Of a stretch of DNA of 55,873 bases, positions 27,508 through 46,630 are shown in pieces (position 1 is the first letter of the stretch; each line of letters starts with the position of its first letter). The translations under genes and the position numbers were made by a program. The notes beneath the pieces were generated by a model, which was given only the letters and a program-made list of their open reading frames with translations, had not been told where the DNA came from and did not search any database. The DNA is from an archaeon (GTDB lineage Archaea > AGJL01 > Methanococci > Methanococcales > Methanocaldococcaceae), in NCBI GenBank assembly GCA_024278985.1, contig JAJRSC010000017.1:1-55873 (forward strand), read 5' to 3'.

Positions 27508-27548
27508 ATATAATAGTATAATAGTTATAATATATTAAGGGGAAATTT

Positions 27549-28736
27549 ATGAAAGTTGAAGATATTGTTATTTTTGCATTAAAAAATATAAAACAAAAAA
27601 GAACTCAAAGTTTATTAACAATCATTGGAGTTGTAATTGGAGTTTTGGCAATGGTTGTTTTAATATCTTTAGGTTATGGTGTTCAAAATTATATACATGA
27701 AGAAATGATGAAAATGGGTTCAAATAAAATAACTATTCTTCCAACAAAACAGTTGGGAATTCCTCCCTCACATTTATTTACCAAAAAAGATGTTAAAGCT
27801 GTTGAAAATGTTAAAGGTGTTGATACAGTTGTGTATGGTTGGTATGGTGGATGTGAAATAGAATATGATGGTGAAAAAAGATTTGTATCCTACTATTATG
27901 CAACTCCATCAAGATTAAAAAAAGTTTATGAAAATAGTGGTTATAGTATTGAAAGTGGTAGATGGTTAGAAGATAATGATAAATATGCATGTATTATAGG
28001 TTATGGAACAGCTCATAACTTATTTGATAGAGAAATAAAAGTTGGTGATGTAATAAAAATTAAAAATAAAAAATTTAGAGTTGTTGGAATTTTAAAAGAA
28101 GTAGGAAATCAGCAGGATGATAATTCAGTTATTTTAAATATAAATGTTGGAGAAAAACTGTTTGGAAATGAGGGAAAATATAACTTTATCATTGCATCAG
28201 TAAAAGAAGGGGAAGATGTTGAAAAGGTTTCAGAAGATATTAAAAAAGCTCTAAAAAAATCTTTTGGAGATGAAGAGTTTTCTGTTTTAACAGCAGAATA
28301 GTTAGCAAAAACTGTTAATTCAGTTCTTGGTGCTATAACAATATTTGTTGTTGGAGTTGCAGCTATTTCATTATTGGTTGGGGCTGTTGGCATCTCAAAC
28401 ACTATGCATATGAGTATTTTAGAAAGAAGGAAAGATATAGGAATATTAAAGGCTTTGGGAGCAGAAACAACAGATATTTTAGCAATATTTATTATTGAGT
28501 CTGGATTTTTAGGATTATTTGGAGGAGTTATTGGTTTAATTTTGGGAATTTTATTAGCAAAAGGTATTGAAATAGTTGCTCATAAAATGGGTTATTTAAT
28601 GGTTAATGCCTATATCTCTTATGAGTTAATTGTTGGAATTTTAGCATTTTCATTTTTAGTTGGTGTTATTAGTGGTTATTTCCCAGCAAAAAGTGGAGCT
28701 AAATTAAATCCAATAGAGACATTGAGAGGGGAATAG
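27549..28736 (+). pseudogene. MacB/FtsX-type ABC exporter permease, interrupted by one in-frame TAG
   Basis: The 396-codon frame encodes a complete permease of the MacB/LolE type: one membrane helix at residues 20-45, an extracellular MacB_PCD domain to about residue 245, and three C-terminal helices (the FtsX domain). The frame is open on both sides of a TAG at 28299-28301 (residue 251, context VLTAE-stop-LAKTVNS). Conservation after the stop is normal, including AVGISNTMHMSILERRKDIGILKALG. A single C-to-T change from CAG (Gln) would explain it. It is either a recent nonsense mutation or a sequence error. The neighbouring ATPase gene is intact. Confidence 0.85.
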
Positions 28737-40550: not shown

Positions 40551-42041
40551 ATGAAGGAATTAGTAGATGCTTATTTTAAAGAACATTCTCTTATAGAGCA
40601 TCAAATAGAGTCATTTAATGATTTTATAGAGAATAGATTACAAAGAATAGTTGATAATGTTGGCATTATTGAGACAGATGTTAGTGAATATAAAATAAAA
40701 CTTGGTAAAATTAGAGTAGGAAAGCCAACAATTAAAGAAGTTGATGGCTCAATAAGGAACATTACTCCAATGGAAGCAAGAATAAGGGACTTAACCTATG
40801 CAGCTCCAATATATTTAGAGATGACAGCATTTTATGAAGAAAATAATGAAATTATAGAAGTTGATAGTATTGAGGCATATATTGGAGAACTTCCAATTAT
40901 GTTGGGTAGTAAGTACTGTATTCTTCATAATCTAACTGATGAGGAAAAAATTAAGTTAGGAGAAGACCCAAAAGACCCATTAGGATACTTTATAATTAAT
41001 GGAACTGAGAGAGTTTTAATTACTCAAGAAGATTTAATACCAAATAGAATTATAACAGAATTTACAGAAAAAAATAATAAAAAAATAGCATTGGCAAAAG
41101 TATTCTCTACAAGACATGGATTTAGGGCTTTATGTTCTGTTGAAAAACATCCTAATGGATTATTGTATGTTAATGCTCCAAACTTACAACAGATACTATT
41201 AGTTATTATATTAAGAGCTTTAGGTGCTGAAACAGATAAGGATATTATTGAATCAATAAATGACCCAAGATTTGTTATGGAACTTCTCTTAAATATTCAA
41301 GAGATTAGAGAGGAATATAATATAAACACTAAAGAGGAAGCATTGGAATTTATTGGTAAAAAATTAGCTCCTGGACAAAGTAAAGAGTATAGAATAAAAA
41401 GAGCAAAAAGTGTTATACAAAATCAATTACTTCCACATTTAGGAGTTTATTAAGAGGATAATTCAAAAAAAATAAAATTCTTGGGCATAATGGCTAAAAA
41501 TGCTCTTGAGTTATATTTTGGTTACAGATCTGAAGATGATAAAGACCATTATGGATTTAAAAGGGCTAAATTAGCAGGAGACTTAATGGAGGATTTATTT
41601 AGAAATGCATTTTCTTATTTAGTTAAAGATATCAAAAAACAACTAAATAATCAAATACTTAAGAAAAATAAAAAATTCTCATTAAAGGCATTAATTAGAA
41701 GTGACATTATTACCGAAAGAATTAGACATGCTATGGCTACAGGAACATGGGTTGGAGAAAGAACTGGAGTTAGTCAATTATTAGATAGAACCAGTTATTT
41801 AGCAACAAATTCACAATTAAGGAGAATTGTTTCCCCACTTTCAAGGTCTCAGCCACATTTTGAGGCAAGAGAATTACATGGAACTCATTGGGGTAAAGTA
41901 TGTCCATCTGAAACTCCAGAAGGTCAAAATTGTGGATTAGTTAAGAATTTTGCATTATTTGCAAAAATAACAAGACATGAAGATGATTCAAAGATAATAG
42001 AATTCTTAAAATCATTTGGAATTACTGAATTTAAGTTATAA
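40551..42041 (+). CDS. rpoB2: RNA polymerase subunit B'' (RpoB2), interrupted by one in-frame TAA
   Basis: The 497-codon frame matches the normal length of methanococcal RpoB2, the N-terminal part of RNA polymerase subunit B (protrusion, lobe and start of the fork). Ordinary conserved sequence runs on both sides of a TAA at 41451-41453 (context LLPHLGVY-stop-EDNSKKIKFLG): upstream GYFIINGTERVLITQEDL, downstream GYRSEDDKDHYGFKRAKLAG and TSYLATNSQLRRIVSPL. One base change (for example GAA to TAA) would account for it. The gene is essential, so sequence error, readthrough or a natural extra split are the options. A downstream restart at ATG 41490 has no good ribosome site. Confidence 0.9.
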
Positions 42042-42054
42042 ATAGGGTGAAATA

Positions 42055-43953
42055 TTGGCTGAGGCAAATATATATGTTAATGGAAAATTAGTAGGTAAGA
42101 CTGACAAACCTGAAGAATTAGTAAAAGAAATTAGAGAAAAAAGAAGGAAAGGAGAATTACCAAGATATACAACAGTTGTTTATTATGAGGATAGTAATGA
42201 TATCCATATAAATACAGATGCTGGAAGGATTGTAAGGCCTTTAATAGTTGTTGAAAATGGTAAACCTAAATTAACTAAGGAACATATTGAAAAACTTAAA
42301 AAAGGAGAAATAAGATTTGATGATTTAGTTAAAGAGGGAATAATTGAATTTTTAGATGCTGAAGAAGAAGAAAATGCTTTAATTGCTACATCTGAGGAAG
42401 AATTAACAGAAAAACATACTCATCTTGAACTTGACTGTTTAGGAATATTAGGAATAGGGGCTGGAATAGCTCCATATCCTGAGCATAATGCCGCTCCAAG
42501 AATTACTATGGCTGCTGCAATGGGTAAACAATCTTTAGGATTCCCAATGAGTAATATAAAATGGAGAATGGACACAAGAGGGCACTATCTTCATTATCCA
42601 CAGGTTCCTATTGTAAAAACAAAACATCAGGATATATTAGGATTTGATGAAAGACCTGCTGGACAAAATTTTGTTGTTGCTATTATGAGTTATGAAGGAT
42701 ACAATATGGAGGATGCTATAGTATTCAACAAGTCAGCTATAGATAGAGGTTTAGGAAGAAGTACATTCTTTAGAACATATGATGCCTGTGAAAGAAGATA
42801 TCCAGGAGGACAAATGGATAAAATAGAAATTCCTGATAAAGGAGTAAAAGGATACAGAACAGAAAAAGACTATAGATTATTAGAAGATGATGGTATTGTA
42901 GCAGTTGAAAGTTATGTAGAAAGTGGAGATGTATTAATTGGAAAAACTTCTCCACCAAGATTTTTAGAAGAGTATGAAATTTCTTTACAAGTTAAACCAC
43001 AAAGAAGAGATTCTTCAGTAGTCGTAAGACATGAAGAAAGAGGGTATGTTGATAAAGTTATTTTAACTGAAACAAGGGAAGGAAACAAATTAGTAAAAGT
43101 TAAAGTTAGAGATTTAAGAATTCCAGAATTAGGAGATAAATTTGCTTCAAGACATGGACAAAAAGGGGTTATGGGTCTAACTGTTCAACAGGAGGATTTA
43201 CCATTTACTGAAAGTGGTATCGTTCCAGATATTATAATTAATCCTCATGCAATTCCTTCAAGGATGACAGTAGGACAACTATTAGAGATGCTTGGAGGTA
43301 AAGTTGGTTCATTGGAAGGTAGAAGAGTAGATGGGACAATATTTAGTGGGGAAGAGGAATTAAGTTTAAGAGAGGCATTAGAAAAACTTGGATTTAAACA
43401 CTCTGGAAGAGAAACAATGTATGATGGTAGAACTGGAAAAAAGTTTGAAGTAGATATATACATTGGAGTAATTTACTATCAAAAACTTCACCATATGGTT
43501 GCTGGAAAAATACATGCAAGAAGTAGAGGACCTATACAACTATTAACAAGACAACCAACAGAAGGTAGAGCAAGAGAAGGAGGGTTAAGATTTGGAGAAA
43601 TGGAAAGAGATGTTTTAATTGGACATGGAGCTGCTTTATTATTAAAAGAAAGATTAATGGATGAATCTGACCCTTATGATGTTTGTGTTTGTGAAAAATG
43701 TGGAGACTTTGCAATATTAGATTATAGAAGAGGACTAAAATACTGTCCAATATGTAATGAAGTTGAAGAACTACACTCATCTAAAAAAATACCATTTATT
43801 AGAATACCATATGCCTTTAAGTTGTTACTTGATGAGTTAAAAAGTATGTGTATTTTACCAAATTTAAAAGTTAGAGATAAAGTTGAATTACAGGACTTTG
43901 AAGGTATAGAAAATATAAACAAGGAAGAAAAAGGGGATAATAATGATAGCTAA
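42055..43953 (+). CDS. rpoB1: RNA polymerase subunit B' (RpoB1)
   Basis: A 632-residue C-terminal part of subunit B, the usual methanogen split form. It holds the catalytic-wall and clamp segments: [36 protein letters not shown], and a zinc site near the C-terminus (CVCEKCGDF with YCPICNE). The start is TTG, preceded by AGGGTGAAATA. The last 11 bases overlap rpoA1. The split between B2 and B1 falls at the canonical site for methanococci. Confidence 0.96.
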
Positions 43954-46630
43954 AAAAGTACAATCTAAATATGAAATAGAAAAAGAATTAAAGGCTATAA
44001 CCTTTGGATTATTATCTCCAGAATATATAAGAAAAATGTCCGCTGTTAAGGTAGTTGTTCCTGATACTTATGATGAAGATGGTTATCCAATTGAAGGAGG
44101 ATTAATGGACCCAAGAATGGGAGTTATTGACCCTGGATTAGTTTGTAAGACTTGTGGAGGAAAAATGGGAGATTGTCCAGGACATTTTGGACATATTGAA
44201 TTAGCAAAGCCAGTTATACATGTTGGATTTGCAAAGACAATATATAAAATATTAAAAGCTGTTTGTCCTCACTGTGGAAGGGTTACATTACCATATAATA
44301 AGAGAGAAGAGTTTATAAAAAAAATGGAAAAACTTGAGAGAGATGGAGGAAATAAATGGGAAGTTTGTGATGAAGTATTCAAAGAAGCTGCTAAAGTAGC
44401 AATATGTCCATTTTGTGTAGAGATTAAATTTGATGTCAAATTTGAAAGACCTTCAACATTTTATAAAGTTGAAAATAATGAATTAAAAAGATTAACCCCT
44501 GTAGATGTCAGAGAAATCTTAGAAAAAATTCCTGATGAAGATTGCTATTTAATTGGGATAAATCCAAAAACATCAAGGCCAGAATGGATGGTTTTAACAG
44601 TTCTACCAGTACCTCCAGTTACAGTAAGACCATCAATTATATTAGAAAGTGGAGAAAGAAGTGAAGATGATTTAACCCATAAATTGGCTGATATAGTTAG
44701 AAACAATAATAAATTAGAGGCTTATATTGAAGCAGGTTCTCCTAACTTAATTATTGAAGATATCTGGTGGAACTTACAATATTTAATTGATACATACTTT
44801 GATAATGAACTTCCTGGAGTACCTCAGGCAACACATAGAAGTGGAAGGCCATTAAAAGGTTTAGCTCAAAGATTAAAAGGAAAAGAGGGAAGATTTAGGT
44901 ATAATTTAGCTGGAAAAAGAGTTAATTTTTCTGCAAGAACTGTTATATCCCCAGACCCATGTTTAAGTATCAATGAGGTAGGAGTTCCTGAAGAGATAGC
45001 AAAAGAATTAACAGTTACTGAAAGAGTTACAAAATATAACATTGAAAAATTAAAGAAATTAATATTAAATGGACCTAAAAAATATCCTGGAGCAAATTAT
45101 ATTATAGTTTATAGACCTGGAAGAGATGGGTCAATTACTGAATATAGAATAAGATTAGATGATGAAGAGAGAAGAAAATACTGGGTTGAAAATATTAGAG
45201 AAGGAGATATAGTTGAAAGACATTTATTAGATGGAGATATTGTTCTATACAACAGACAGCCGTCTTTACACAGAATGTCCATTATGGGTCATAGAGTTAG
45301 AGTTTTACCATATAGAACATTTAGACATAATTTATGTGTATGTCCTCCTTACAATGCTGATTTTGATGGAGATGAAATGAACCTTCATGTTCCACAATCA
45401 GAAGAGGCAAGAGCTGAAGCTGAGGCTTTAATGTTAGTTGAAAAACATATTTTGTCTCCAAGATATGGGGCTCCAATTATAGGGGCAATACATGACCATA
45501 TATCTGGAGCATATATATTGACATCAAGATACTTTACTAAAGATGAGACAACACTAATATTAAGAGCTGGAGGAATTAAAGCAGAATTATGGGAGCCGGA
45601 TAAAATAGAGAATGGTGTCCCTCTATATTCAGGAAAAAAAATATTTAGTAAAGCTCTTCCAAAAGGATTAAACATTAAATTTAAAGCAAGAATTTGTAGA
45701 AAATGTAAAGAATGTAAAAAAGAAAATTGTGAATATGATGCCTATGTTGTAATTAAAAATGGAGAGTTAATAAAGGGAGTGATAGATAAAAATGCTTATG
45801 GTTCTGAGGCTGGAAAACTATTAGATGTTATTGTTAAAGAGTATGGATTTGAAGCAGGAAGGAAGTTTTTAGATTCTGTAACAAAGATGGTTATTAAGAC
45901 AATAATGCTAAAAGGATTTACAACTGGAATTGATGATGAAGACTTACCAGAAGAGGCATTAAAAGAAATTGAAAAAGTTTTAGATGAAGCTGAGAAAAAA
46001 GTAGAGGAAATTATTGAAAAATACAAAAGAGGAGAACTTGAACTTATTCCTGGGCAAGATTTAGAACAATCAAGAGAAACACATATTACAAAAGTTTTAA
46101 GAGAGGCAAGAGATAAAGCTGGGGAAATTGCTGAGAGATATTTAGGGATGAACAACCATGCTGTTATTATGGCAAGAACAGGGGCAAGAGGGAACATTTT
46201 AAACCTTACTCAAATGGCAGCATGTTTAGGACAGCAGTCAGTTAGAGGTAAAAGAATATTTAGAGGTTATAAAGATAGAGTTTTACCACACTTTGAAAAG
46301 GATGATTTAGGAGCAAGAGCTCATGGATTTGTAAGAAGTAGCTATAAAAAAGGATTATCTCCAACTGAATTTTTCTTCCATGCTATTGGAGGAAGAGAAG
46401 GATTAGTTGACCAAGCAGTAAGAACTGCTCAATCAGGATATATGCAAAGAAGATTAATTAATGCACTTCAAGATTTAAAGGCAGAAATTGATACAACTGT
46501 AAGAGACTCAAGAGGTGTTATGATACAATTTAAATATGGAGAGGATGGATTAGACCCAATGCTAACTGATAAAGGAAAAATAGATATTGATAGAATAATA
46601 AACAAAATTAAGATGAAGTATGAAAATTAA
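43943..46630 (+). CDS. rpoA1: RNA polymerase subunit A' (RpoA1)
   Basis: An 895-residue subunit with the catalytic [12 protein letters not shown] motif carrying the three Mg-binding aspartates. N-terminal zinc site: [17 protein letters not shown]; a second site at [12 protein letters not shown]. The C-terminus ends at the normal A'/A'' break ([18 protein letters not shown]). The M. jannaschii gene has an intein here absent. The expected next gene, rpoA2, is not present: a kinase gene on the other strand follows, overlapping 23 bases. Confidence 0.96.

Follow-up and report, generated by a model that had tools for sequence, protein, structure and literature searches.

Two described situations come closest to a gene for an RNA polymerase B subunit that is interrupted by a stop codon. 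The first is the natural archaeal split of rpoB into the two genes rpoB2 (subunit B'') and rpoB1 (subunit B'), which is normal for the genus under study here. The second is the base-level consensus error of draft genomes, associated with low read depth or with G>T and C>A artefacts of the damage type; G>T artefacts have been described as resulting from oxidative damage outside the cell (PMC12390751). A literature search for split rpoB genes or stop codons in draft genomes yielded nothing directly relevant.

The window analysed here, a stretch of 55,873 nucleotides (contig JAJRSC010000017.1), originates from a draft genome of 1,106,849 bases in 30 contigs with an estimated completeness of 85.78% (G000). 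Its rpoB2 gene is located on the forward strand (positions 40551 to 42041), starts with ATG at 40551 and ends with TAA at 42039-42041. As noted in the first-pass annotation, the sequence carries a single in-frame TAA at 41451-41453, corresponding to codon 301. The frame is open on both sides of it as was claimed, although the 196 codons beyond the TAA and the total of 497 codons given there both include stop codons: 300 codons precede the internal TAA and 195 follow it before the normal stop. The assignment to RpoB2 is based on full-length homology within the genus and on the conserved order of the adjoining genes rpoB1 (42055 to 43953, forward strand) and rpoA' (subunit A'; 43943 to 46630, forward strand), both of which are intact. 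In three other genomes of the genus (G004:C1:974606-978625, G008:C28:25559-29581 and G013:C1:1539135-1543157) rpoA' is matched in two separate parts that lie about 1.3 kb apart within a single open frame of 1346 aa. The gap corresponds to an in-frame insert, which may be an intein.

Each of the 13 other genomes in the genus encodes an uninterrupted RpoB2 sharing 70-76% identity over about 491-496 aa with the frame described above, which agrees with the earlier statement that its total length is the normal one. The claimed conservation of both halves was likewise borne out, as the 20 residues before and after the TAA share 65% and 80% identity, respectively, with the complete genome of the genus that served as reference (G001). 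The gene is present in a single copy in the draft. At the site of the TAA 12 of the 13 relatives encode Lys and one (G003) encodes Glu, so that the comparison with relatives proposed in the first-pass annotation returned a sense codon in every case; about 80 other archaea also have a sense codon and no stop at this site. Judged by this homology the TAA is an interruption of one homologous chain, beyond what would be expected by chance.

The first-pass annotation had also considered a genuine extra split resulting in a B subunit in three pieces, the third of which would start at TTG 41481 or ATG 41490. Such a break could be tolerated considering that the TAA falls between PHLG and KKxxFLG, where archaeal sequences vary, and that the B subunit of the genus is already composed of two parts. 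However, in contrast to rpoB1, which is preceded by its own ribosome site before TTG 42055, the TAA would be an additional break without a ribosome site, and none was found at the two candidate starts. The predicted duplex energies were +2.6 kcal/mol for TTG 41481 and -2.4 kcal/mol for ATG 41490 compared to -7.4 for rpoB2, -8.5 for rpoB1 and -6.2 for rpoA', calculated against an assumed archaeal anti-Shine-Dalgarno tail, a measure with only modest power to tell true starts apart in this genome; they are in accordance with the earlier remark that no good ribosome site was visible. A new start would furthermore cost about 10 residues, the conserved KKIKF among them, and neither the 13 genomes of the genus nor the approximately 80 other archaea show a split at this site. 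Taking furthermore into account that such a split would leave unexplained 32 similar stops in other genes, several of them within universal motifs, a real extra split seems extremely unlikely.

These further stops were detected in a comparison covering 1.08 of the 1.11 Mb of the draft (98%) with the complete genome of 1.60 Mb. The ORFs of the complete genome were searched against the draft using tblastn, and in-frame stops were recorded if at least 50% identity was found over 20 residues on each side and no gap was nearby. This procedure revealed 38 clean isolated stop sites, five of which (C1:9306, C1:9462, C17:8237, C4:47895 and C5:194) were left out as spurious ORFs or apparent ORFs of rRNA regions, a judgement that does not affect the outcome. 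The remaining 33 isolated in-frame stops (22 TAA, 9 TAG and 2 TGA) are located in well-conserved genes, most of which are named by NCBIfam. The affected genes encode three aminoacyl-tRNA synthetases (IleRS, ileS; TrpRS, trpS; LysRS, lysS), the ribosomal proteins uS2 and uL5, SUI1, GatA (gatA), DNA topoisomerase I (topA), RadA (radA), an ATP-dependent DNA ligase, aCPSF1, FtsY (ftsY), PurA, PurD, PurT, CoaBC, dihydroxy-acid dehydratase (ilvD), a member of the isopropylmalate/homocitrate synthase family (LEU1), the tyrosine decarboxylase MfnA, the hydrogenase VhuA, CheA, the methyl-CoM reductase component A2 and others. Examples are the loci L097 (C1:13302), L127 (C5:72914), L166 (C17:67736) and L122 (C3:50370).

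The reverse comparison of the draft ORFs with the complete genome produced seven sites, none of them in a real gene: six belong to ORFs that overlap, or run antisense to, another ORF with homology, and the seventh falls where no ORF is listed. The same test hence returns 33 lone stops in the draft versus 0 in the complete genome, and a frameshift count, which is weaker and uncurated, gave 9 versus 4. The rpoB2 TAA is thus nothing out of the ordinary within its own assembly. The window itself contains a second lone stop, a TAG at 28299-28301 (forward strand) at a position occupied by Gln in the complete genome, in a gene for a MacB/FtsX-like ABC permease (about 27537-28736) that is 88% identical to its counterpart there; this TAG is probably the same kind of error as the one proposed below for rpoB2.

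No gene of the draft carries more than one lone stop, and the number of stops per contig fits chance (simulated p = 0.84). Conserved places are struck as often as others, with a mean identity of 78% in the flanks of the stops versus 76% for whole genes, and several stops reside inside universal motifs such as HVTL*GGTGLVHT in IleRS and DTTLRDGE*TPG in the isopropylmalate synthase family. Among the stops reachable in one step, Lys, Leu and Tyr sites account for 2 of 25 compared to about 61% expected under uniform substitution and the codon usage of the draft (p = 3.5e-8). Where the codon of the complete genome is one step away, the changes comprise six G>T, three C>A, three C>T and one A>T; the first three types make up 12 of the 13 cases, and the lone A>T is the rpoB2 site.

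The first-pass annotation had further offered readthrough of a genuine nonsense codon, which would involve a suppressor tRNA or leaky termination throughout the genome. The frame after the stop indeed remains open and conserved, and many essential genes would require the same rescue. However, reassignment of one codon to one residue with a matching tRNA does not describe the data, as TAA, TAG and TGA are all represented and stand at sites of 12 different residues, including Glu, Gln, Gly and Ser, which points to a mutational pattern rather than to one amino acid. Moreover, a search of 98% of the draft, which recovered an incomplete set of 21 tRNAs, detected no suppressor tRNA with the anticodon TTA or CTA that would read UAA or UAG, and TGA appears to be read by tRNA-Sec only. 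The gene for this tRNA-Sec (anticodon TCA; L112, G000:C16:12697-12784, minus strand) is the sole one with a Sec-type TCA anticodon. Readthrough of the rpoB2 TAA is therefore left without support and seems very unlikely, and it would be just as surprising if a methanogen tolerated stops in dozens of essential genes, B'' included, by general readthrough.

Alternatively, the nonsense mutations could be real and stem from a sampled cell or sub-population that was damaged, dying or a mutator, as might happen with a single-cell amplified genome. This would be compatible with the damage-like spectrum of changes, and with one amplified cell as the source, lesions of the template would enter the consensus. 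Nevertheless, the joint loss of IleRS, TrpRS, LysRS, uS2, uL5 and RNA polymerase would be inviable, so that the lineage itself cannot carry these mutations, and this explanation appears scarcely credible.

Within the genus, internal stops in IleRS, the methyl-CoM reductase component A2, aCPSF1, PurT and RpoB2 occur only in the draft genome; since these genes were picked for having a stop there, the result indicates that the relatives are intact and says nothing on rate. PurT (L122, G000:C3:49695-50870) shares 94% identity with the complete genome compared to a gene median of 73.5%, which might reflect strong conservation of the gene, its recent exchange or a mixed bin. Dihydroxy-acid dehydratase was left out of the genus-wide check. 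Its aligned stretches contain one stop each in G002:C1:40685-42355, G003:C1:637442-639112 and G012:C1:420373-422031, where the alignment may run into upstream DNA.

Unique changes at invariant sites were counted in RpoB2, IleRS and component A2. For RpoB2 a special acceleration or decay was considered and dropped, as G003 shows a similar count to the draft (33 vs 44), which is in line with the earlier statement that the gene shows no decay. For IleRS, in which the divergence of the draft is comparable to that of G003 or G012, 36 unique changes compare to 35 and 41 in two equally divergent genomes, a comparison of little power. Radical mismatches between the draft and the complete genome in conserved stretches amount to 520, among which the approximately 32-44 expected from errors are too few to be discerned.

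With 33 lone stops in conserved and mostly essential genes of the draft, the rpoB2 TAA is therefore almost certainly a base error of the assembly. Based on the assembly sequence rather than on reads, we assign a probability of roughly 0.93 to the reading that it represents a base-level consensus error, the option of a base-call error in the first-pass annotation being the one that gains support from such stops throughout the genome. In common with consensus errors of draft genomes, the stops represent isolated substitutions, mostly away from G and C, that hit genes which must be intact and no gene more than once; similar lesions are randomly scattered over unrelated essential genes, while the complete relative has none. 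This conclusion is based on how many stops there are, how they are spread and which genes they hit; without general readthrough no living cell could bear them. As the deduced changes mostly replace G or C, the presumable cause would be damaged or amplified template DNA, low read depth, or both. A counter-point is that the simplest change in rpoB2, AAA to TAA, is an A>T and falls outside the prevailing types (G>T, C>A and C>T), unless the lineage had Glu, as is the case in G003, or Gln at this site.

Where a draft genome shows a single stop within an essential gene, this should thus be weighed against the number of similar stops elsewhere in the same assembly. Equal suspicion is merited by the remaining lone stops and unusual residues of this draft, among them the TAG at 28299. 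For the organism, the TAA in rpoB2 almost certainly signifies neither a broken nor a split polymerase, and there is no need to invoke stop readthrough or a B subunit in three pieces. The living archaeon most likely has a sense codon at 41451-41453 and would produce B'' as a single, ordinary chain of about 496 residues.
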